DNA from: Alphaproteobacteria bacterium
Lineage (GTDB): Bacteria; Pseudomonadota; Alphaproteobacteria; Rhizobiales; Aestuariivirgaceae
NCBI GenBank assembly: GCA_024640405.1
Contig: JAHEFB010000001.1
Span: 1-64,000 of the forward strand
Direction: 5' to 3'
DNA length: 64,000 bases
A program made the position numbers and the translations under genes. Below the pieces are notes generated by a model, which was not told where the DNA came from, made no database searches, and worked only from the letters and a program-made list of their open reading frames with translations. Within the stretch, counting starts at the first letter, position 1, and each line of letters starts with the position of its first letter. Below, piece by piece: positions 2,693 through 29,652 of the stretch.

Positions 2693-2706
2693 TTGACGCA
2701 GGTCAA
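2693..2706. promoter_or_regulatory. Fnr/FixK-type box upstream of rhodanese
   Basis: TTGAC-GCAG-GTCAA, a perfect dyad matching the Crp/Fnr-family consensus TTGAT-N4-ATCAA. It lies in the 265-nt gap after the GMC gene, about 190 nt before the rhodanese start. The same GCAG spacer recurs at 6585 and 10120. Confidence 0.65.
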
Positions 2707-2890
2707 GGGCCGATCCGGAAAAATCATCATGATGGCTTTGACAGGAAACCGGGGACCGGACGATTGGTGCAAGTGATGGTTCAGTGATGAAGATGGCGGA
2801 AATGAATTTGCCAAAGCTCACATTCAATGGTGCTGCTATGATGCGGGTCCAGTTCAGAGCAACGCAGAGAGTGGCTAAAGCGAGGATTGC

Positions 2891-3274
2891 ATGATGTTGA
2901 AGACGGGTTTCAAGCAGTTGCTGGCGCAGGCAAACGCCGTCATCGAAACCGTTTCAGTGCAGGACTTGCCGTACCTGCAAGATGATCCGGACGTGGTGAT
3001 CGTTGACGTCCGCGATGCCTGGGAACGCGAGGCGGAAGGCACGATCCCAAATTCGATACTTGCATCGCGCGGAATGCTTGAGTTTCATGCAGACCCGGAA
3101 TGCCCGGCGCATATTGAGGCGCTTGATCCTGCCAGGCGCATTGTGTTGTATTGCGGGACCGGTGGGCGCTCAACGCTTGCCGCCAAGACGCTCCAGGATA
3201 TGGGGTTTTCCGATGTACTGTCGCTGGCTGGCGGGTTTGCCGCGTGGCAGGCTGCGAAAAGTGGGAAAGGCTAG
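2891..3274 (+). CDS. Rhodanese-like sulfurtransferase
   Basis: Single-domain rhodanese of 127 residues, without signal peptide, so probably a cytoplasmic sulfur-carrier or persulfide transferase. The substrate-site signature VIVDVRDAWERE is near residue 36 and the active-site loop CGTGGRSTLAAKTL carries the catalytic Cys, followed by the terminal LAGGFAAWQ motif typical of the fold. Two in-frame ATGs (2891, 2894) follow a GAGGA ribosome site. The second has the better spacing. A short coiled-coil-like gene starts 6 nt after its stop, implying co-transcription. An Fnr-type box upstream suggests expression at low oxygen (inference). Confidence 0.88.
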   Translation: MMLKTGFKQLLAQANAVIETVSVQDLPYLQDDPDVVIVDVRDAWEREAEGTIPNSILASRGMLEFHADPECPAHIEALDPARRIVLYCGTGGRSTLAAKTLQDMGFSDVLSLAGGFAAWQAAKSGKG

Positions 3275-3279
3275 GTATC

Positions 3280-3483
3280 ATGGCGTTTGACGACCTGATT
3301 ACCCGAATAAATCTGTTCTTCAGCCAAGCTGAAAACGAGGCCGAGGATGCGCATCAGGTGCTTGAGCAATTGCATGCCGAGCTGGCTCAGTTGAAGGCAA
3401 CCGGGCAACCTTTGCCGGCGGACCTGGTTCGACTGGAGGCGCTGCTGGATCAGGAGTTCAAGTCCAGAGTGGTCAGGAAATAG
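3280..3483 (+). CDS. Small hypothetical protein, 67 aa
   Basis: A 67-residue reading frame starting at ATG 6 nt after the rhodanese stop. It is highly charged and predicted helical, with heptad-like spacing (AENEAEDAHQVLEQLHAELAQLKA), and reads like a short coiled coil. No catalytic motif, membrane segment or signal peptide is visible and the family was not recognised. Its tight spacing makes it the second gene of a rhodanese operon. Confidence 0.6.
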   Translation: MAFDDLITRINLFFSQAENEAEDAHQVLEQLHAELAQLKATGQPLPADLVRLEALLDQEFKSRVVRK

Positions 3484-3553
3484 CCGGACTTTCCGAACCG
3501 TTTTCGGCAAATGGCTTTTAGCACTGTTTGTTTTCACCAGTTGGCCGAGTTTT

Positions 3554-3567
3554 ATGATTTCGATCAA
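3554..3567. promoter_or_regulatory. Fnr/FixK-type box upstream of usp gene
   Basis: ATGAT-TTCG-ATCAA, one mismatch from TTGAT-N4-ATCAA. Its centre is 67 nt before the GTG of the downstream universal stress protein, the right distance for an activator centred at -41.5 and a leader of about 26 nt. Confidence 0.65.
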
Positions 3568-3627
3568 TGCGCACGCGCATGATCTGGTTGCAGGATATGT
3601 CCACCGACGCTGCAAGGAGGATATCTC

Positions 3628-4470
3628 GTGAACCCGAAAACGTTTGTCGTCAGTCTCAATGATATCGGCAATCAGGAACATCTGCTGGCCACCTGCAGTT
3701 CGCTGGCGGCTCATCATGGCGCCCATGTCACAGGCGTATTCATCATACCGTCTGTCGAGGTCTATGCCGTCTATGGCGGTATAGCCATGGCAGATGTGGT
3801 GGACGATCAACGCAAGCGCTATCAGTCAATGGCGACGGAAGTACGCGAGAAGTTTGAGCGTACGATGAAATTGAACTCACTGTCCTATGACTGGCGTGAG
3901 CTTGACGCATTAAGCTCGTCCATCGGGCGAGAATTTGTGCAGCAATGCCGGCTGGCTGACATTGTCATGATTGGACAGGTTGTTGCCGACAAGACTTGTG
4001 GTGTGGAACCGGGTTTCGCCGAGTATGTGGTAATGGAAGCGGGCCGTCCGGTGCTGTTGCTGCCGCGCGGCAAGTCATTCGAGACCATCGGAAACAAGGT
4101 GCTGATGGGTTGGAACGGAAGCAGGGAGGCTGCACGCGCCTGTTTTGATGCCCTGCCGCTTCTGTCGACGGATTGTGAGGTTGATATTGTCTGGGTCGAT
4201 CCGCAGAAGCAACGTGGTTTGGCAGGCAGTTTGCCCGGGGCGGAACTGGCAACCACTTTTGCCCGCCACGAAGTCAGGGTCACCGCGGAACCGATGCCGA
4301 CTGCGGACTCGGATGTCGGCAGGGCCTTGCTGACACGGGCTGGAGATACCGGGGCTGATCTGCTGGTCATGGGGGCTTATGGGCACTCCAGAGTGCGCGA
4401 GTTCGTATTTGGCGGCGCAACACAACACGTACTCAACAACATGACGGTTCCGGTGTTGATGTCGCACTGA
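3628..4470 (+). CDS. Universal stress protein, tandem UspA domains
   Basis: A 280-residue soluble protein with two Usp folds. The second half ends in the ATP-binding-type loop of the family, LLVMGAYGHSRVREFVFGGATQHVLNNMTVPVLM (G-x2-G-x9-G-S/T pattern). The first half is degenerate. Start is GTG behind a strong AAGGAGGA site. Family members respond to energy limitation, anoxia and stationary phase. An Fnr-type dyad sits in the promoter region, consistent with oxygen control. Two further Usp genes occur within 7 kb, each with its own dyad. Confidence 0.9.
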   Translation: MNPKTFVVSLNDIGNQEHLLATCSSLAAHHGAHVTGVFIIPSVEVYAVYGGIAMADVVDDQRKRYQSMATEVREKFERTMKLNSLSYDWRELDALSSSIGREFVQQCRLADIVMIGQVVADKTCGVEPGFAEYVVMEAGRPVLLLPRGKSFETIGNKVLMGWNGSREAARACFDALPLLSTDCEVDIVWVDPQKQRGLAGSLPGAELATTFARHEVRVTAEPMPTADSDVGRALLTRAGDTGADLLVMGAYGHSRVREFVFGGATQHVLNNMTVPVLMSH

Positions 4471-4519
4471 GAATTGCTCGCTGGCCTTAACCTAGATTTG
4501 CTTATGGAGACAATTTTTG

Positions 4520-4894
4520 ATGACTGTGAAACAAATTCGTATGGAACTCGCCCGCGACCGTGATTTCCCGCAGGGCAGCCGCGAGCATGGCTATATCCTC
4601 CTCGCCCCGCTGGACAACATGGACCGGATCGATGCTGCCGAGTGGAAGAGCAATCGCGAGAAATGCAGGGTTACGCGGTTCTGGGGGGGCGACGAGCGTG
4701 AAGTCGGACACCTGGTACGCAAGCCAGGAGGCGCATGGGCATTTCACTACGACATCCACGGCAATGAAGATGATGACGAGACCGGTTACCGCTTTGGAGA
4801 CGAGCGCTTTCGGCCCGGTGAATATGTGTCGATCCGCGAACAGGACGGCGAAATGCGAACTTTTCGCGTTATCACGGCGACGGATGTTCGCTGA
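4520..4894 (+). CDS. Conserved hypothetical protein, 124 aa
   Basis: A 124-residue acidic soluble protein with no signal peptide or membrane segment. The C-terminal half has the pattern DDETGYRFGDERFRPGEYVSIREQDG...FRVITATDV, suggesting a small beta-barrel. Function not recognised. ATG at 4520 is preferred over the TTG one codon earlier. It is placed between two stress-type genes and 32 nt before the fused kinase, so the two may be co-transcribed. Confidence 0.7.
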   Translation: MTVKQIRMELARDRDFPQGSREHGYILLAPLDNMDRIDAAEWKSNREKCRVTRFWGGDEREVGHLVRKPGGAWAFHYDIHGNEDDDETGYRFGDERFRPGEYVSIREQDGEMRTFRVITATDVR

Positions 4895-4926
4895 TCCGCA
4901 CCATTTGCGGTGCGCGCAGACGGTGG

Positions 4927-6519
4927 ATGACTACCGTCAGGCAGGATACTCGGATGACGGATCGGCCAGTTCACAAAGATCATGAAGAGCAATATCACGC
5001 CGAGGTCATTGCATTTCTCCGGGAGCCCGCCTCATACCCGGGCGGTGTCCCGTCCGTTGATGTCATAGAAACCCACGCCGCGATGGTTTTTCTGGCAGGG
5101 CATGAAGCCTTCAAGATCAAAAAAGCCGTGACTTTTCCGTACCTCGACTTCGGCTCGCCGGAGAAACGCAAGGTGGCTTGTGAATATGAACTAAAGATCA
5201 ATCAGCCCCACGCCCCAATGATTTATCTCGACGTTGTGACAATCACTCGCGAGGCAAACGGCGGACTTGCGATCAATGGGTCGGGGGAGCCAGTTGAGTG
5301 GGCTCTGCACATGCGGCGTTTTCCGGACAATTCGCTGCTTGCACATGCAGTCGGCGCCGGTGGCGTGAAAACGGGCTTTCTGGATCGTCTGGCCGACGAG
5401 ATTGGCAGATACCATGCAGTGGCACCCGTCGTGCAGGATCACAATGCAGCCAACAGGATGAGCGCCATTGTCGATGAACTGTCCGGGGCGTTTCGAGAGG
5501 CCACAGGGGCCTTACCCTCTATCGCAGTGGAGCGCTTCGAGAATGCAGCGAAAACCGCACTGCGCGATTGCGGAGACCTGCTGAACGAACGTGGCAGGCA
5601 AGGTCATGTGCGTCGCTGTCACGGTGACTTGCACTTGTCCAACATTGTCATTCTCGATGATCAGCCAGTGCTGTTCGACGCCATCGAATTCAACGATGAG
5701 ATAGCAACCGTCGATGTTTTGTACGACCTGGCCTTTCTGCTGATGGACCTCGGTCATCTCAACGAAAACGACTATGCAAACCGCGTTCTGAACCGCTACC
5801 TGTCACGGACCGGCAATGGCGAACATCTGGCCGGATTGCAGGCCATGCCGCTGTTTATGGCCTGTCGGGCCGGTGTGCGGGCCATGGTGGCTGTTACACT
5901 GTTGCAACAGTCCATGGTGGCTGGCCAGCCGTCAGAAGCAGCCGTCGATGCGGGTACCTATCTTCTTGAGGCGATAAACTTTCTGGAACCTCAGCTCCCG
6001 CGGTTGATCGCGGTTGGAGGATTGTCAGGCACTGGCAAAACATCTGTCGCCCGCGCGCTTGCGCCGCGAATAGCACGCTGTCCCGGTGCTTTGCATCTGA
6101 GAACCGACGTCGAACGCAAGCGGATGTTCGGTGTTGGCGAAACGACAAGGTTGCCGGAAGATGCATACACGCGGGAGATCAGCGATCAGGTCTATGGGGA
6201 GGTTATCAAAAAAGCGACAACTGCCTTGCAGGCGGGGCATACGGTAATTGTGGATGCGGTTTATCTGGATCAGGATGAGCGTTCCGCCATTGAACAGGCA
6301 GCCGCGAACACAGGAACGTTATTTACGGGATTGTGGCTCGAGGCTGATGAGGAGCTTCTTGTAAAGCGGGTGACCGAGAGGCGTGGAGATGCATCTGACG
6401 CCACTGCGGATGTTGTCCGGTATCAGACCAAACGCCCCACCGGACCGATCAGCTGGCGAAAAATCAATGCCGAGGGGGAACTGAAAGAAACCATCGAGCG
6501 GGCCCTGAAAACCCTGTGA
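4927..6519 (+). CDS. Fused APH-like kinase / P-loop AAA-type kinase
   Basis: A 530-residue two-domain protein. The N-terminal half has an aminoglycoside-phosphotransferase-like fold with the catalytic loop CHGDLHLSNIVILDD followed by the metal-binding FDAIEFND (about residues 233-260). The C-terminal half is a separate P-loop kinase with Walker A GGLSGTGKTSVAR (about residue 361) and an LRTDVERKRMFG lid region. The arrangement corresponds to the COG2187+COG0645 fusion, often found beside Usp genes. The phosphoacceptor is unknown. ATG 4927 and ATG 4954 (MTDRPVHKD) are both possible starts and neither has a strong ribosome site. Confidence 0.82.
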   Translation: MTTVRQDTRMTDRPVHKDHEEQYHAEVIAFLREPASYPGGVPSVDVIETHAAMVFLAGHEAFKIKKAVTFPYLDFGSPEKRKVACEYELKINQPHAPMIYLDVVTITREANGGLAINGSGEPVEWALHMRRFPDNSLLAHAVGAGGVKTGFLDRLADEIGRYHAVAPVVQDHNAANRMSAIVDELSGAFREATGALPSIAVERFENAAKTALRDCGDLLNERGRQGHVRRCHGDLHLSNIVILDDQPVLFDAIEFNDEIATVDVLYDLAFLLMDLGHLNENDYANRVLNRYLSRTGNGEHLAGLQAMPLFMACRAGVRAMVAVTLLQQSMVAGQPSEAAVDAGTYLLEAINFLEPQLPRLIAVGGLSGTGKTSVARALAPRIARCPGALHLRTDVERKRMFGVGETTRLPEDAYTREISDQVYGEVIKKATTALQAGHTVIVDAVYLDQDERSAIEQAAANTGTLFTGLWLEADEELLVKRVTERRGDASDATADVVRYQTKRPTGPISWRKINAEGELKETIERALKTL

Positions 6520-6584
6520 ACGCGGCTATGCAGAGTCGGCACTGCAACTCAAATCGACCAAACTGCTCGATAGCCAGACCATGA

Positions 6585-6598
6585 TTGATGCAGGTCAA
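6585..6598. promoter_or_regulatory. Fnr/FixK-type box upstream of second usp gene
   Basis: TTGAT-GCAG-GTCAA, full match to the Crp/Fnr consensus half-sites. Its centre is 107 nt before the usp ATG. The in-frame TTG that would extend that gene to 6585 lies inside this box, which argues against the longer start. Confidence 0.68.
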
Positions 6599-6698
6599 GG
6601 CAGGCAGCGGCAATGCCATTCAAGGTGATAATGATGACAAGGATTCGGGCAGGCATACCTGCCGGGGACATCGTAAAAAGTCATTGCTGGAGAGAGAA

Positions 6699-7682
6699 AT
6701 GCGACGGTTCAGAAAGATCCTTTATGTGCATGAGGAGAATTCGCCGGTCGCCCTGGAAACCCTGCAACTGGCATTGAAAATTGCAGAGAAGAATACAGGC
6801 CGGGTTGATCTTGTTACGGTGCTTGAACCACCGTCGGTCACGTTTGCCTCCAACATCTCCTTGTTGCTGCAATCAGGCTGGCTGAAAGAGTCAAGAGAAC
6901 AATTGCGGCAACTTGGCCTTTTGGCGGACCCGCAAGGCAAACTCAATACAAAAGTCATTGAAGGCAGACCGCATATTCAGGTGGTGCGCGAAGTGTTGAA
7001 AGAGGCTTATGACCTTGTCATCAAGCCAGTTGGGCCAAGCGGTTTCATGGACCGTTTGCTGGGGCGCCTCGACATGCGTTTGTTGCGCGATTGCCCGTGC
7101 CCGGTGTGGTTGTCGAAGGGCGAAGCCTACGGCGCCTTTGACAACGTGCTGGCGGCAGTTGATGCCGGTGGTGAGATTTTCCTGGAAGACCACACGGAAA
7201 AGCCGAAGGCAAAAGATGCGTTGAACAGGCAAATACTCGAACTGGCTTATTCATTATGCGCGGAAAACAACGCCCGCCTGCATGTTGGCCACGCCTGGTA
7301 TCCGCCGTTCCTGTCACCCTACAGCCGGGCGAGAGCCAACATCCCGCAAAAGGAAATCGATGCTTATTTCAATACCGTCAAACGTACGCATACAGGCTGG
7401 CTTAAGCTTTTGTTGGAGGAGGCCGCCGATTGGGTCGGCATGGATGTTGTTGAAAGCGTAAAGACGAAGTTGCATTTGCCAAGAGGCGAACCGGCGACAG
7501 AAATTCCGAAACTGATATCAGACGTTCAGGCGGATCTGGTGATCATGGGTACGGTTGTGCGAACCGGGATTTCCGGTCTGGTAATGGGGAACACGGCGGA
7601 GAGCATACTGGATCGCGTGACCTGTTCCGTGCTCGCGGTCAAGCCAGAAGGATTCGTATCCAGCGTGACACTGGATGAATGA
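6699..7682 (+). CDS. Universal stress protein, tandem domains (UspE-like)
   Basis: A 327-residue tandem Usp protein. Domain 1 opens with FRKILYVHEEN and domain 2 ends with LVIMGTVVRTGISGLVMGNTAESILDRVTCSVLAVKP, the UspE-type closing motif. The ATG at 6699 is preceded by GGAGAGA. The longer frame, opening 114 nt upstream, runs through an Fnr-type dyad and has no Usp homology. UspE-class proteins accumulate in anaerobic or stationary cells, which fits the dyad. It is followed by a convergent ECF sigma gene. Confidence 0.9.
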   Translation: MRRFRKILYVHEENSPVALETLQLALKIAEKNTGRVDLVTVLEPPSVTFASNISLLLQSGWLKESREQLRQLGLLADPQGKLNTKVIEGRPHIQVVREVLKEAYDLVIKPVGPSGFMDRLLGRLDMRLLRDCPCPVWLSKGEAYGAFDNVLAAVDAGGEIFLEDHTEKPKAKDALNRQILELAYSLCAENNARLHVGHAWYPPFLSPYSRARANIPQKEIDAYFNTVKRTHTGWLKLLLEEAADWVGMDVVESVKTKLHLPRGEPATEIPKLISDVQADLVIMGTVVRTGISGLVMGNTAESILDRVTCSVLAVKPEGFVSSVTLDE

Positions 7683-7767
7683 GCCGTTCCATATGATTCC
7701 CGGCAGCCTGGCAAACCGGCAAAGGACGGAATTTCAGGTCGGTCCAATTTCTCCCTGCAACCGATGT

Positions 7768-9012
7768 TCAAAGGCGCGCGATCCTATCGCGCAGGAACGC
7801 CTTCTCCAGCTTGTTGTCCGACAGGTTGATGGCTGTGATGAAGGTTTTCCTGGCCTCATTCGTCTTGCCGGCCCGAGCCAGTATGTCAGCACGGGCTGCG
7901 AAGTAAGGCTGATAGCCATCAAGTACGCCGGCGGATGCCGCCTCGCTGAGCATCGACAGTGCTGCCTCCGGTGATCGCGAATAAGATACTGCAACGGCCT
8001 GATTTACCCGCACGACGGGCGACGGTTGGATTGTGTATAACAGATGGTAGAGGGCCTCTATCTGGACCCAGTCGGTTTCGTGCCATGTGGGGCTTTGAGC
8101 ATGTACCGCGCTGATTGCTGCCTGCAACTGGTAGGGTCCGAGACGCTGCATTGGTAAGACGCGCTCCAGAATCCTTGCTCCTTCGGAGATTTTTGCCTTG
8201 TCCCAGCGCCCGCGGTTCTGATCCTCCAGCGGGATTAATTCACCCGACTTTCCAGTACGTGCAAAGCGCCGGGAATCATGCAGCAGCATTAGTGAAAGCA
8301 GGCCTTCGGTTTCAGCATCTTCCGGCATGAGCTGGTTGATGATGCGTGCCAGACGGATGGCCTCTTCGATCAGGTCTGTTCGTGTGAGCCGGTCGCCTGC
8401 CGACGCGGAATAACCTTCATTGAAGATCAGGTAGATGACCCTGAGCACTGATGCGGTCCGCTCCGGCAAAACGTCGTTGCCGGGACACCTGTAGGGAATG
8501 CCAGCTAGTCTGATCTTCTTCTTTGCTCGCACAAGCCGCTGTGCCATGGCTTCGGGCTTGTCGAGAAATGCGAGTGCTATTTCCTGTGTGGTCAAGCCAC
8601 CCAGAGTGCGCAGGGTGAGAGCTACCCTGGTCTTTTCCTCCAGCGACGGATGGCAACAGGTGAAAATCAATTCCAGTCGCTTGTCCGGGATTATCTCCGC
8701 CTGGAATTCGTCGGCAGGCACGTTTCCCAGATCAGCAAGATATGAAATCTCCTGCTGCCTGGCGGCGAAGTTTTTCTGGCGTCGCAGCCGGTCGACGGCT
8801 TTTCTGCGGGCTGCAGTTATGAGCCAGGCGGCCGGAGAATCTGGCAAGCCGTGTTTTTGCCAGTGGCTTATGGCCGAGACCACGGCGTCCTGCAGACAGT
8901 CTTCCGCCAACTGGAAATCGCCTACCGTATTTATGAGCGAAGCGAGAATGCGCCCCCACTCTTCACGAACGGTTCTGTCTATGGTCCGTTGCAGATCAAG
9001 AGGGGGCAGCAT
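7768..9012 (-). CDS. ECF42-type RNA polymerase sigma factor with C-terminal TPR region
   Basis: A 414-residue extracytoplasmic-function sigma factor. Sigma-2 is near the N-terminus (DCLQDAVVSAISHWQK), sigma-4 contains LGGLTTQEIALAFLDKPEAMAQRLVRAKKKI, and a long C-terminal helical region of TPR type ends FAARADILARAGKTNEARKTFITAI. This layout, together with the adjacent DGPF/YCII gene, defines the ECF42 group, in which no classical anti-sigma factor is used and the C-terminal extension is needed for activity. It starts 18 nt after the YCII stop, and a matching ECF42-type promoter precedes that operon. Confidence 0.92.
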   Translation of the reverse strand: MLPPLDLQRTIDRTVREEWGRILASLINTVGDFQLAEDCLQDAVVSAISHWQKHGLPDSPAAWLITAARRKAVDRLRRQKNFAARQQEISYLADLGNVPADEFQAEIIPDKRLELIFTCCHPSLEEKTRVALTLRTLGGLTTQEIALAFLDKPEAMAQRLVRAKKKIRLAGIPYRCPGNDVLPERTASVLRVIYLIFNEGYSASAGDRLTRTDLIEEAIRLARIINQLMPEDAETEGLLSLMLLHDSRRFARTGKSGELIPLEDQNRGRWDKAKISEGARILERVLPMQRLGPYQLQAAISAVHAQSPTWHETDWVQIEALYHLLYTIQPSPVVRVNQAVAVSYSRSPEAALSMLSEAASAGVLDGYQPYFAARADILARAGKTNEARKTFITAINLSDNKLEKAFLRDRIARL

Positions 9013-9030
9013 GTCGGACCTCAGCGCCTG

Positions 9031-9384
9031 CTAACTATCCCAGATCATTACCGGGCGAACTTCAACGTGACCGTGTTCGGCTGTGGGGATCATGGCAGCA
9101 TATCTGACGGCCTCGTCGAGATCTTCGCAGTCGAGCAGATAGTACCCGCCCAGTTGTTCCTTGGTTTCAGCGAAAGGTCCATCCATTGTCTCGGTTTTGC
9201 CGCCTTGCACGGAAACCGTGGTGGCAGTCGCGATCGGCTGCAGGGCGTCTCCGGCTACAAACTTGCCTGCCTGTTTTACGTCTTCGGTAAAGTCGACGTA
9301 ACCTTTCATGAATGGTCCGAATTCGTCGGTTCCCGGTTGTGGGCCTGATCCCTCTGTCGCGTAAATTAGAAGCATGTACTGCAT
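9031..9384 (-). CDS. YCII/DGPF-domain protein, ECF42 partner
   Basis: A 117-residue YCII-related protein beginning MQYMLLIYATE and carrying the hallmark TMDGPFAETKEQLGGYYLLD, the DGPF motif. DGPF proteins are almost always encoded next to ECF42 sigma factors and are usually their regulon members. The biochemical role is unknown. It is first in the two-gene operon, with an ECF42-type promoter 50-75 nt upstream. Confidence 0.9.
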   Translation of the reverse strand: MQYMLLIYATEGSGPQPGTDEFGPFMKGYVDFTEDVKQAGKFVAGDALQPIATATTVSVQGGKTETMDGPFAETKEQLGGYYLLDCEDLDEAVRYAAMIPTAEHGHVEVRPVMIWDS

Positions 9385-9434
9385 TTGATTTCTCCTTGTG
9401 ATGCACCAGGGCCATCATGGCCTTGTACATACCA

Positions 9435-9461
9435 GACGAACGGGATTGCTTGAAATCGACA
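9435..9461 (-). promoter_or_regulatory. Candidate ECF42 promoter (autoregulation)
   Basis: Read on the minus strand this is TGTCGA (9461-9456), a 17-nt spacer and CGTC (9438-9435). That matches the -35 TGTCGA and -10 CGTC-type elements reported for ECF42 promoters as I recall them. A start about 6-8 nt downstream would give a leader of about 45 nt before the YCII gene. Confidence 0.6.
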
Positions 9462-9626
9462 TGTTTATAGAATTTTTTCTAACGGCACCAAAAAGAGCCC
9501 GGGCCTCAGGTGATCGCGACAGGCGTCTTCCGCAAGAACGGAGAAGAATTCCGACGTCCGGTCGTGACACAGTGCGAGTTACGGACCGCGCGTTGCCGCG
9601 CTGTTCTGAAGGGGCCTGATCTCAGG

Positions 9627-10061
9627 TTATTTCACGGTCATGCAGGTGCAAGGGGCATTCTGGCTTACCTTGTGTGACACGCTTCCAAGCAACAGACTGG
9701 CAAGACCACCAAGCCCACGCCTGCCCGTTACAATCAGGTCTGCTTTGGATTTTTCAACCTGCCGCAGAATTTCGTCAGCCGGGTCGCCGTTGGCAATGAC
9801 ACATTCGGCGGGGCTGCAGCCCTGTTTTTTGGCTTGCTCGACAGCTTGCGCCATGACCTGTTTTCCAGCTGCGGCAATCTTTTCCTCAGTGGGTGGAATT
9901 GCCACTGCGCCGGAGCCTACCACTATCGCTGCGGTCTCAAGCTCCGGGGAGTGGACCAGATGAATTTTTGACTTGTACTTGTTGGCGATATCGCAAGCTG
10001 TGGCCAGCGCGTGTTCAGCCTGTTCGGATCCGTCAATTGCAACGACGATAGTGTTAAACAT
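9627..10061 (-). CDS. Universal stress protein, single UspA domain
   Basis: A 144-residue single-domain Usp beginning MFNTIVVAIDGSEQAEHAL and ending with LIVTGRRGLGGLASLLLGSVSHKVSQNAPCTCMTVK, which holds the complete G-x2-G-x9-G-S nucleotide-binding loop. It is therefore likely an ATP-binding Usp. The internal ATG is chosen because GAGGTG lies 7 nt upstream and the Usp fold starts there. The frame is open 72 nt further. An Fnr-type dyad is centred 66 nt upstream. Confidence 0.92.
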   Translation of the reverse strand: MFNTIVVAIDGSEQAEHALATACDIANKYKSKIHLVHSPELETAAIVVGSGAVAIPPTEEKIAAAGKQVMAQAVEQAKKQGCSPAECVIANGDPADEILRQVEKSKADLIVTGRRGLGGLASLLLGSVSHKVSQNAPCTCMTVK

Positions 10062-10119
10062 GTCAATCACCTCAATGTTGATGATGGCTGCCATGTTAAG
10101 CTGGAGAAAATGAAATATC

Positions 10120-10133
10120 TTGACGCAGATCAA
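10120..10133. promoter_or_regulatory. Fnr/FixK-type box upstream of single-domain usp
   Basis: TTGAC-GCAG-ATCAA, a full consensus match, between the end of sthA and the usp gene. The position corresponds to an activator at -41.5 with a leader of about 24 nt. Confidence 0.68.
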
Positions 10134-10142
10134 TCGTCAGGA

Positions 10143-11543
10143 TCAGGAGTTTGCCGTTGGCATCCGGTTCCACGCGTCCAGTGCCGCAATTTTGTAGGCT
10201 TCTGCCAGAGTGGGATAGTTGAAGGCATTTTCCACGAAGTACTCCAGGGTGCCCTGGAGATTGAGCACCGCCTGGCCTATATGGATCAGCTCGGTCGCGC
10301 CCTCGCCGACGATATGGCAGCCCAAGAGCCTGCGGCTCTTGAGTGAAAAGATCATCTTCAGCATGCCGGTGTTGAGGCCCATTATGTGTCCACGCGAAGT
10401 TTCCCGGAACCGCGCTATGCCGCATTCGTAAGCGATATTGCGCTCCTGAACCTCTTCTTCCGTCATGCCGACCGTCGACATTTCAGGTACCGAATAAATG
10501 CCATAGGGGAAAAATTCGGGCGGATTGTGTGCGGGCTCACCGAACGCATGACAGGCGGCAATTCTTCCCTGTTCCATCGAGGTTGACGCGAGGCTGGGAA
10601 AGCCGATTACGTCACCGGCGGCATAAATTCCCGGCACATTTGTTTCGAAAGTTCCGGCATCGACCTGTAACCTTCCGCGATCATCGGCATCCAGGCCGCA
10701 GGCATCAAGGTTGAGACCGGCGGTTGATCCAATTCTGCCGGCTGCGAACAGAACCATTTCAGAGCGAATGTTTCGACCTCCCTGCATCTCAACCTCGCAT
10801 CCGCCATTTTCCAGTCTGGTGATGTTCTCAACCTTGCGGCCAAACCGCAGCACCATCCCCCGGTCCTTGATCTGGTGGGTAAAATCATCAATCAGTTCGC
10901 GGTCGATGAAATCAAGCATGGTATCGCGTGGTTCGACAACGGTGACATGCACATCCAGTGAACTGAAGATGGTGGCATATTCTATTCCAATTACTCCTGC
11001 GCCGATTACCGTTATCGTACGGGGCAAACGGTCCAGGTTGAGAATTTCATCACTGTCAAAGACACTCGTCGCGTCAAATGGCACATGGGCAGGGCGCAAG
11101 GGGACGGTTCCGACAGCCAGCAGAATTCTATCGGCAGTGAACGAGAGTGTTTCACCTTCATCTCCAACAACCTCAATGGCATGTTGATCGACAAAGCGTG
11201 CCTCGCCATTGAGGGTTGTTACCTGGTTGCGGGCAAACTGATGCTCCAGAACCTCAATCTCGTGATTGAGGGTAATATGCAGGCGCGCGCGCAGGTCGTT
11301 GGCGGTCAGGTCCTGTTTGACGCGATATGATCTTCCGTAAAAACCGCGTTCACGCCAGCCGGACAGGTTCAGTGCGGTTTCCCTGAGTGTCTTGGATGGA
11401 ATGGTTCCGGTGTGTACGGAAACGCCGCCGACACGTCTTCCGCGTTCAACGACCAGAACCTTCCTGCCGAATTTTGCAGCCTGAATCGCCGCGCGGCGTC
11501 CGGCTGGTCCGCTGCCGATAACAATGAAGTCGTAGTGTTCCAT
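10143..11543 (-). CDS. sthA: Soluble pyridine nucleotide transhydrogenase (Si-specific)
   Basis: FAD enzyme that reversibly transfers hydride between NADPH and NAD+, cytoplasmic. At 466 residues it equals the E. coli SthA length. The FAD fold FIVIGSGPAGRRAAIQAAKFG is at the start, the NAD fold VIGAGVIGIEYATIFSSL is mid-protein, and the site that holds the redox-active CxxxxC in lipoamide dehydrogenases reads VSVHTGTIPSKTL without cysteines, diagnostic for SthA. The start is the ATG of MEHYDF. The longer frame adds 29 unrelated residues. It lies upstream of a usp gene on the same strand with an Fnr-type dyad between them, so both may serve redox balance at low oxygen. Confidence 0.93.
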   Translation of the reverse strand: MEHYDFIVIGSGPAGRRAAIQAAKFGRKVLVVERGRRVGGVSVHTGTIPSKTLRETALNLSGWRERGFYGRSYRVKQDLTANDLRARLHITLNHEIEVLEHQFARNQVTTLNGEARFVDQHAIEVVGDEGETLSFTADRILLAVGTVPLRPAHVPFDATSVFDSDEILNLDRLPRTITVIGAGVIGIEYATIFSSLDVHVTVVEPRDTMLDFIDRELIDDFTHQIKDRGMVLRFGRKVENITRLENGGCEVEMQGGRNIRSEMVLFAAGRIGSTAGLNLDACGLDADDRGRLQVDAGTFETNVPGIYAAGDVIGFPSLASTSMEQGRIAACHAFGEPAHNPPEFFPYGIYSVPEMSTVGMTEEEVQERNIAYECGIARFRETSRGHIMGLNTGMLKMIFSLKSRRLLGCHIVGEGATELIHIGQAVLNLQGTLEYFVENAFNYPTLAEAYKIAALDAWNRMPTANS

Positions 11544-11732
11544 GGCAATTCTGTTCCAACCCGGTCTGCCGATGCAATTCAAGGGAATCACTGCAACTGC
11601 AGCGCCTTGACGCATTCGATCCCATATCATGAAGAATGTCTTCGGAAGCAGGGCTGCTCCGATTCATCTCGACTGTCACCGGTCAGTCTTATTGATCTTT
11701 GCGGCAATCGCAATGCACCGGTGACCAAAGAT

Positions 11733-12323
11733 TCACTTCTCTTGCCTGGTTCTGAGATGTCGTTTCAGGACATTTACCATCCCTTGCACCTCATCCTCCT
11801 TGAGACGACCATGATTAGCGAGAAACAGAACGATATCGCGCTTCGAATAACGTCCCATCAGCCGGGTATCATCGATGATGAGTTCGCTGCGGGAGAGCTT
11901 CACTGCCCTGTCATGGCAGATTCGGCACTTCTTTTGAAAAAGCCCTCCCGACTGCTGGATGCTGATGAAATGGACCATGATGGTCGCCACCTCGGCCGGC
12001 GTCAGCCTGCCATGATCCGCATCCAGAAATGCACGTACCTCGCGGCCGGTCTCGCGACCGATGAGGTTGCCATTTGACATTACCAGGTTTTTCCGCACGA
12101 AGGTGCCTGCATGCGGTGCGTGGCAATCGCCGCATCGCTGCTCATACAGCTTGTGTGGATCAATTGATTGCGCAAAGGCCACTGCCGGCATTGCTGTCGA
12201 GATTGCGAGAAAGCAAGGCGCGCTTTTTCCGAGTAATCCAGATACAATCCGGCGCACGTAACCGGGGTTTTCAATGCTCGTCAAAAGTCCCACAGCGCGT
12301 CTCTTCCAAGGGTGAATTCTCAA
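11733..12323 (-). CDS. Periplasmic diheme cytochrome c-like protein
   Basis: The product carries two heme-attachment motifs, CGDCH (about residue 64) and CRICH (about residue 132), on two similar c-type modules (HGRLTPAEV and HGRLKEDEV repeats). A signal peptide is visible as MRRIVSGLLGKSAPCFLA...AVAFAQS if translation begins at the GTG at 12257 rather than at 12323. The Fnr-type dyad centred at 12363.5 would place transcription start near 12322, which also favours the shorter form. Family not named. The role is probably periplasmic electron transfer. Confidence 0.75.
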   Translation of the reverse strand: MRIHPWKRRAVGLLTSIENPGYVRRIVSGLLGKSAPCFLAISTAMPAVAFAQSIDPHKLYEQRCGDCHAPHAGTFVRKNLVMSNGNLIGRETGREVRAFLDADHGRLTPAEVATIMVHFISIQQSGGLFQKKCRICHDRAVKLSRSELIIDDTRLMGRYSKRDIVLFLANHGRLKEDEVQGMVNVLKRHLRTRQEK

Positions 12324-12356
12324 TTCATACTGTAGCGATCAGGGACTGCAATTGCC

Positions 12357-12370
12357 TTGACCGTCATCAA
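12357..12370. promoter_or_regulatory. Fnr/FixK-type box upstream of cytochrome c gene
   Basis: TTGAC-CGTC-ATCAA, a full consensus match, located immediately upstream of the diheme cytochrome gene. At the canonical -41.5 spacing the transcript would begin at about 12322, at or just inside the longest possible start codon. Confidence 0.66.
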
Positions 12371-29638: not shown

Positions 29639-29652
29639 TTGACTTAAGTCAA
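29639..29652. promoter_or_regulatory. Fnr/FixK-type box upstream of hemerythrin gene
   Basis: TTGAC-TTAA-GTCAA, a fully symmetric Fnr-type dyad. Its centre is 105 nt before the hemerythrin ATG. This is the sixth such site in the window and the only one outside the first 13 kb. Confidence 0.7.

Follow-up and report, generated by a model that had tools for sequence, protein, structure and literature searches.

Do the Fnr/FixK-type dyads upstream of redox and stress genes in the stretch of 64,000 nucleotides analysed here (the window) mark a low-oxygen regulon? A previous sequence-only reading had proposed this for five 14-mers at positions 2693, 3554, 6585, 10120 and 12357, and had suggested as checks a whole-genome scan, a comparison of intergenic with coding DNA and a search for a Fnr/FixK/Dnr homologue. 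All five 14-mers were found at these positions (Table 1). Those at 2693, 6585, 10120 and 12357 are perfect TTGAYNNNNRTCAA dyads (TTGAY-N4-RTCAA), the one at 3554 has one mismatch. We consider it probable (about 0.87), judging from sequence evidence, that the block belongs to the genome's low-oxygen regulon, with predicted Fnr-type binding at the dyads and class II activation of the block genes. The proposal is supported by the presence of regulator genes, the depletion of dyads within genes and the conservation of four of the five sites.

Table 1 Dyads and genes of the block, with one further dyad of the window
Feature	Position	Strand	Remarks
Fnr-type dyad TTGAC-GCAG-GTCAA	2693..2706	none	upstream of rhodanese and 67-aa gene pair
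Single-domain rhodanese	2891..3274	+	Pfam PF00581, E 3e-21; kept with next gene in three congeners
67-aa protein without family	3280..3483	+	coiled coil according to the sequence-only reading; 5 bp behind rhodanese
One-mismatch dyad ATGAT-TTCG-ATCAA	3554..3567	none	upstream of usp 3628
Universal stress protein, 280 aa	3628..4470	+	Pfam PF00582 on C-terminal half
Unnamed 124-aa family	4520..4894	+	relatives frequently follow a usp or stand alone after a dyad
Fused kinase, APH-like and AAA_33 P-loop domains	4927..6519	+	Pfam PF01636, PF13671
Fnr-type dyad TTGAT-GCAG-GTCAA	6585..6598	none	upstream of UspE-like gene
UspE-like tandem universal stress protein	6699..7682	+	start taken as ATG 6699; PF00582, two stretches
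Single-domain universal stress protein	9627..10061	-	PF00582, E 1e-30; 83-86% identical in three congeners
Fnr-type dyad, TTGAT-CTGC-GTCAA on usp strand	10120..10133	none	upstream of single-domain usp
Diheme cytochrome c, two CXXCH	11733..12323	-	start codon uncertain; from sequence, weak Pfam and NCBIfam matches
Fnr-type dyad	12357..12370	none	upstream of diheme cytochrome c
Extra perfect dyad TTGACTTAAGTCAA	29639..29652	none	between aminotransferase gene (-) and hemerythrin-domain gene (+)

A dyad density beyond expectation had been claimed, and this was confirmed for perfect matches: five were counted in the window against a shuffle mean of 0.32, and none of 100 shuffles reached five. With one mismatch allowed, 14 dyads were seen versus 8.28 by chance, and 5 of 100 shuffles reached 14. 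Because 8.28 such dyads are expected per window, the dyad at 3554 is uninformative on its own. The perfect dyad at 29639 is absent from the earlier list of sites. In the whole genome (4.37 Mb, 108 contigs) 63 places with a perfect dyad were detected, compared with 16 for the reversed motif as control; for the strict form TTGAT-N4-ATCAA the counts were 19 and 0. At the genome's own dyad rate, four dyads in one given 9.7-kb stretch have P ~1.4e-5, and P ~0.006 after correction for the number of such stretches genome-wide. Each of the six genomes of the genus showed this excess over the reversed motif (36-63 vs 5-16).

Furthermore, 47 of the 63 genomic dyads are intergenic in a genome with 85% coding DNA (binomial p 1.6e-25 against an intergenic share of 15.4%); the count is 47 or 48 depending on the edge rule at site 6585, and gene calls were made with a simple script and are not an annotation. 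The other 16 lie inside called genes, 6585 among them under the start chosen by the caller; thus, some dyads are probably due to chance. For comparison, 218 relatives of the 4520 protein were found in genome contigs and the best 80 of these were kept as related loci. In these loci, with 88% of the DNA coding, 93 dyads are intergenic and 13 coding, while five control dyads gave 0 to 6 in total each. The loci of the own genome were fetched around listed dyads, and the intergenic share, not the density, was used from them. In the window, 8.8% of the DNA is outside gene calls and four of the five perfect dyads are located there. The dyad at 6585 overlaps the caller-chosen start at 6588; the ATG at 6699, where strong conservation sets in, is ~107 bp downstream of it.

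Conservation in three congeners (G001, G002, G004) sets four of the five listed dyads apart (2693, 3554, 6585 and 10120). In the four-genome alignments 13 of 14 columns are invariant at 3554, where the figure for the remaining aligned non-coding positions is 27%. The counts are 12 of 14 at 10120, 11 of 14 at 6585 and 10 of 13 aligned columns at 2693, where the congeners carry one outermost mismatch. In two of the four alignments the dyad was equalled in conservation by a single other stretch of its length. For 12357, no orthologue of the cytochrome was found in the genus; the one homologue, detected among 39 relatives searched (in G035), has no dyad in front. A chance cluster of functionless palindromes might be suspected from the frequency of the motif at one mismatch (8.28 expected), but perfect dyads are in excess of both shuffles and controls, and conservation was seen at four of the five sites. 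This explanation is practically ruled out by the shuffles, the reversed and scrambled dyads and the footprints.

The GCAG spacer had been reported as common to three sites, which is correct for 2693, 6585 and 10120 on the plus strand; on the strand of its gene the spacer of 10120 reads CTGC. It is also present at 4 of the 44 remaining intergenic sites in the genome, at 8 of 93 intergenic sites in the 80 related loci and at 0 of 28 coding sites. Among the 28 sequences of the ChIP section in Table 2 of Dufour et al. (2010, PMC2908626), we counted 6 with this spacer. GCAG is a general preference. As a mark of duplication or of one special regulator it is disfavoured, since it recurs at other intergenic and at published FnrL sites.

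The distance from dyad centre to start codon is ~67 bp for usp 3628, 107 bp for the UspE-like gene and ~65 bp for the usp starting at 10061. It amounts to 40 bp for the cytochrome if TTG at 12323 is the start, which is uncertain. For the rhodanese it is ~191 bp, so a long leader is needed. Promoters were scored with an approximate -10 matrix. In 54 promoters of the own genome, the block excluded, and in 135 promoters of the related loci the score peaks 29 nt from the dyad centre and next at 28 nt, the class II Fnr spacing. The best -10 hexamer has this spacing in 15 of the 54 own promoters and in 45 of the 135 related ones. Three of the five listed sites have a -10-like hexamer there (chance P ~2e-4, with a threshold chosen after the scores were seen): CATGAT at 2693 (28 nt from the centre, with a higher-scoring hexamer at 19 nt), TAACAT at 10120 (28 nt) and TACAGT at 12357 (29 nt). 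With the same matrix no good -10 at class II spacing was found for 3554 and 6585. These two sites would suit a reading in which the dyads are real but some act as repressor sites by occlusion, like the cox and fnrL promoters of R. sphaeroides, and negative regulation by FnrL is given for such sites in Table 2 of PMC2908626. The -10 signal, regulon-wide and at three listed sites, fits activation, however, and usp genes are activated in the published cases considered here (PMC2908626, PMC5398030, PMC9104804). Repression is accordingly considered very unlikely.

The search for regulators revealed four genes: three encode Fnr-like proteins with a Cys cluster at the N-terminal end, and one a Dnr-like protein. 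The Fnr-like ones (C86:96224, CAQCPVRHHAVC; C50:15154, CATCPVHHHAVC; C40:917, CQACGARRFGIC) have the cluster C-x2-C-x7-C, a central Cys and an ETVSR recognition helix (E-x2-SR). Their nearest solved relatives are FixK2 or FNR, the comparison of C86:96224 being without a printed alignment. In the alignments with FNR, the first two Cys coincide in both the C50 and the C40 protein; the central Cys does so as well in C40 and is located beside a gap in C50. FixK2 is not known to carry N-terminal Fe-S cysteines, which the three candidates have. Judging from the cysteines, all three may hold an oxygen-labile 4Fe-4S cluster. The C40 regulator gene is ~0.7 kb and one gene away from a COX1-family gene preceded by a dyad, which is cbb3-like by our own reading.

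The Dnr-like protein (C86:88135) is a Crp/Fnr protein without Cys cluster. Its nearest solved relatives are 3fx3/3h3z (3fx3, 1e-61; a cyclic nucleotide-binding protein according to the depositors), followed by DNR (3dkw, 4e-30). If the sites served mainly this Dnr/NnrR-like regulator, the block would answer to nitric oxide and denitrification rather than oxygen as such. The promoter of its gene holds a 14-mer identical to site 2693; moreover, PMC2908626 describes the FNR, FixK and DNR motifs as closely alike and attributes one uspA family to DNR. On the other hand, the dyads are kept in G001, G002 and G004, where a search restricted to cytochrome d1, and so not covering the copper nitrite reductase NirK, gave no full-length match (G004 is 78% complete). 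Thus, denitrification is a less likely trigger there, and we regard this alternative as unlikely. Fnr, FixK and Dnr are indistinguishable by motif.

The Anr regulon of Pseudomonas aeruginosa contains Usp and arginine deiminase genes. In congeners of the present genome arginine deiminase genes are located near such dyads; unlike there, no such gene was found on searching the present genome. For one Usp a role in anaerobic survival is cited in PMC2908626. The same paper describes alphaproteobacterial FNR/FixK/DNR regulons with the same 14-bp motif and spacer variants including GCAG. The FnrL-bound 14-mers TTGACgcagGTCAA and TTGACgcagATCAA given there are identical to sites 2693 and 10120, and uspA is part of the predicted FNR core, with FnrL binding to it in R. 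sphaeroides. Predicted targets of the same kinds are Usp (FNR, DNR), Hsp20, cytochrome c, one kinase and HlyD/ABC (FixK), cbb3 oxidase (FNR) and NnrS (DNR). These data are from other organisms; Table 1 of the paper lists unnamed hypothetical proteins, but not the rhodanese, 67-aa and 4520 genes by name. In Bradyrhizobium diazoefficiens boxes of the FixK2 regulon were reported at usp (-72), host attachment (-69) and Hsp20 (-86) genes, and genes of these three kinds with such boxes fall after fixK2 deletion (PMC9104804). The usp gene bll4644 of that species has the box TTGATTTCGGTCAA, with the same TTCG spacer as site 3554. FixK2 is controlled there by FixLJ and by oxidation, whereas the three candidates here carry the N-terminal Cys cluster. 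Dinoroseobacter shibae has an oxygen-sensing FnrL besides Dnr regulators, and three usp genes are direct, activated FnrL targets (PMC5398030); the present genome differs in its set of three Cys-bearing Fnr-like proteins and one Dnr-like protein. Since published FnrL and FixK2 regulons hold usp genes and FnrL binds identical 14-mers, the block is a new instance of an already known regulon type.

The mechanism that we infer comprises Fe-S sensing, DNA binding, activation, the extents of the operons and a role of the products in survival. A drop in oxygen would cause a Fnr-type protein to dimerise, most likely one of those that bear a Cys cluster and acting through an oxygen-labile Fe-S centre. 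The dimer would bind the 14-bp dyads and, from a position near -41.5, recruit RNA polymerase (class II activation). Activation would reach the rhodanese with the 67-aa gene, and the usp with the 4520 gene and perhaps the fused kinase. Further targets would be the UspE-like gene and the single-domain usp, and the diheme cytochrome would probably be one as well. The Dnr-like regulator may share the sites.

The rhodanese and 67-aa genes are likely co-transcribed. In G001, G002 and G004 the latter immediately follows the rhodanese, with the same order in L119-L121, and its product is 87% identical in G004; no Pfam match above the cut-off and no NCBIfam match were obtained for it. The UspE-like protein matched NF008380 below its cut-off. 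The fused kinase was matched in 26 of 39 relatives searched. As the regulon is of a well-described type, the main value of the block is confirmation and a lead on the 4520 family: probable low-oxygen control of this small unnamed family and of the fused kinase offers a concrete condition for testing them.

The 4520 family is the least familiar part of the system; the literature was not searched by sequence, so we do not claim it to be unreported. The protein matched no Pfam or NCBIfam family. A beta-rich fold was predicted (pLDDT 88), for which Foldseek gave no match to a solved structure at E up to 0.001. The best VIA-align matches were lipocalin-like, PliC-like and designed barrels (best Z 6.4, rmsd 3.8, 87 aligned), below the level to trust. 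Tentatively, and with less than even confidence, the protein might be an undescribed small beta-barrel-like anoxia-survival protein of Hyphomicrobiales and neighbours, with a Fnr-type promoter, often with usp, and genetically linked to the APH/P-loop kinase. Usp, 4520 and kinase would then work together as one functional unit in cells starved of oxygen.

The 80 related loci are uneven, with many from Roseibium or Stappia and four from Anderseniella (L124, L125, L126, L163), and L125, L126 and L140 repeat loci of G004, G001 and G025. Most Roseibium/Stappia loci have no perfect dyad near the 4520-family gene. Five loci without a called family member were dropped, leaving 75, and one more at a contig edge, leaving 74 operons. 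In 26 of the 75 loci the relative of 4520 is preceded by a perfect dyad, in 12 with and in 14 without usp in front. Of the 74 operons with a family member, 25 have a perfect dyad; for the remaining 743 operons of these loci the number is 109 (Fisher p 1e-4).

All five Fnr/FixK-type dyads that the sequence-only reading had taken as a probable low-oxygen regulon were found in the window (see the table). Four of them match TTGAYNNNNRTCAA exactly and the site at 3554 has one mismatch. With the additional site at 29639, five exact dyads occur in 64 kb; the shuffle mean was 0.32 and none of 100 shuffles reached five. In the whole genome exact dyads were detected at 63 places, compared to 16 for the reversed-motif control, and this excess was repeated in the six genomes of the genus that were searched (36-63 vs 5-16). 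Furthermore, 39 stretches around the genomic dyads were fetched and their genes called by script. The dyads preferred the gaps between genes: 47 of the 63 were intergenic, though 84.6% of the DNA in these stretches was coding.

Dyads in the window and candidate regulator genes on contigs C86, C50 and C40 of the same genome
Feature	Position	Context	Remark
Dyad	2693	upstream of rhodanese gene (2891)	-10-like hexamer CATGAT
Dyad	3554	upstream of usp 3628	
Dyad	6585	upstream of UspE-like gene (6699)	
Dyad	10120	upstream of usp 10061 (-)	-10-like hexamer TAACAT
Dyad	12357	upstream of diheme cytochrome c gene, 11733..12323 (-)	-10-like hexamer TACAGT
Extra exact dyad	29639-29652	between aminotransferase gene and hemerythrin-domain gene	absent from the sequence-only reading
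Fnr-like regulator	C86:96224		Cys cluster, ETVSR
Fnr-like regulator	C50:15154		Cys cluster, ETVSR
Fnr-like regulator	C40:917		Cys cluster, ETVSR
Dnr-like regulator	C86:88135		without Cys cluster

The dyads upstream of the rhodanese gene, usp 3628, the UspE-like gene and usp 10061 are kept in the congeners G001, G002 and G004, while their flanks have drifted. Invariant columns numbered 10 of 13, 13 of 14, 11 of 14 and 12 of 14, respectively; among the remaining non-coding columns of these alignments the shares were 29, 27, 25 and 40%. In two of the four alignments, those of the UspE-like gene and usp 10061, a second stretch as long as the dyad matched its conservation. The rhodanese dyad, perfect in the window, has one outermost-base mismatch in the three congeners, and that of usp 3628 carries a single mismatch in all four genomes. 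No orthologue of the diheme cytochrome was found in the genus, and the sole homologue detected, in the relative G035, has no dyad in front. Inside the block, at 7768-9384, lie two genes which we take from their sequences to be sigma-factor-like and YciI-like. They have no dyad of their own and are kept together in three congeners.

In class II Fnr sites the dyad is centred at -41.5. An approximate -10 matrix was scored downstream of the dyads in two sets, 54 promoters of the genome outside the block and 135 promoters from related loci. In both, the score peaked sharply at 29 nt from the centre of the dyad, followed by 28 nt, which is the -10 position expected if the centre lies at -41.5. For promoters of D. 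shibae, -41.5 and -39.5 are given in an excerpt of PMC5398030. Three of the five listed sites have a -10-like hexamer at this spacing (chance P ~2e-4, with a threshold set after the scores were seen), and for site 2693 a better-scoring hexamer exists elsewhere. By the same scoring, no such hexamer was detected at class II spacing for sites 3554 and 6585, nor a convincing one for site 29639.

Candidate regulators for the proposed regulon are encoded in the genome. Among 13 PF13545 and 16 PF00027 matches, three proteins have both an N-terminal C-x2-C-x7-C cluster and the recognition helix ETVSR. The solved structures closest to them are FixK2 or FNR; for the Dnr-like protein they are 3fx3/3h3z, then DNR. 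The C50 gene and the Dnr-like gene have dyads upstream of themselves. A COX1-family gene that is preceded by a dyad lies ~0.7 kb from the C40 gene, with one gene between them. Many other dyad-bearing genes of the genome can be read as an anaerobic set: a cytochrome d1 protein, NnrS, a radical SAM gene (hemN-like in our reading), Usp, Hsp20, Host_attach, a PHB regulator, cytochromes c and PEP carboxykinase. For further dyad-bearing genes a link to oxygen is not evident. A second, denser dyad cluster (C86:86400-106399) contains the Dnr-like gene and one Fnr-like gene together with Usp, Hsp20, Host_attach and cytochrome-like genes.

For 87 alphaproteobacteria, Dufour et al. (2010) predicted the regulons of FNR, FixK and DNR; the targets in the available part of that paper include uspA, Hsp20, cytochrome c, a kinase and HlyD/ABC genes (PMC2908626). 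FnrL of R. sphaeroides was found there at TTGACgcagGTCAA and TTGACgcagATCAA, and by our own count 6 of the 28 sequences given for ChIP in its Table 2 carry the GCAG/CTGC spacer. According to an excerpt of PMC9104804, usp, Hsp20 and host attachment genes of B. diazoefficiens with such boxes are FixK2-dependent under microoxia. In an excerpt of PMC6515984, a table that deals with differential expression in microoxia includes several Usp proteins and one host attachment protein. Because the published regulons hold such targets, the low-oxygen interpretation was right in kind, and the kind was already known. Judged from sequence, the assignment as a real Fnr-type regulon block, ordinary in kind, is well supported.

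The point most worth pursuing in the block is the family of the gene at 4520. Its 124-aa protein belongs to no family in Pfam or NCBIfam and is 89-93% identical to counterparts in three Anderseniella-titled contigs and 60% in a fourth. A genome_contigs scan yielded 218 relatives, and 80 loci were kept, by title nearly all from alphaproteobacteria. These contain 93 intergenic and 13 coding dyads. A perfect dyad was present for 25 of 74 operons with the 4520 family, and for 109 of 743 among the remaining operons of these loci. Where the operon holds the adjacent 277-aa Usp family, the count was 40 of 54; 22 of 27 distances were 61-121 bp. Most Roseibium and Stappia loci of the family have no perfect dyad nearby. 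The structure of the protein was predicted with confidence (pLDDT 88), and a search for a solved relative gave none that was trustworthy. Of the 39 relatives searched, 26 have a match to the fused APH/P-loop kinase (4927), as do 33 of the 80 loci, where the kinase often adjoins the family. The 67-aa gene keeps its place immediately downstream of the rhodanese gene in three congeners.

Among the six genus genomes, full-length cytochrome d1 matches were found in the window's own genome and G003, and arginine deiminase in G001, G002, G004 and G005; a search for the deiminase in the window's genome was negative. The two do not overlap in these six genomes, three of which are 78-86% complete, and possibly represent alternative anoxic energy strategies. 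The 4520 and kinase genes are only 32 bp apart in the window. Between their orthologues in G002 and G004 lie genes of the arginine deiminase pathway, one Hsp20-like gene, one Host_attach-like gene and two more dyads; deiminase and ornithine carbamoyltransferase were Pfam-checked in G002 and the remaining genes named by eye. The corresponding interval of G001 also has dyads, and the deiminase is placed there by its coordinates.
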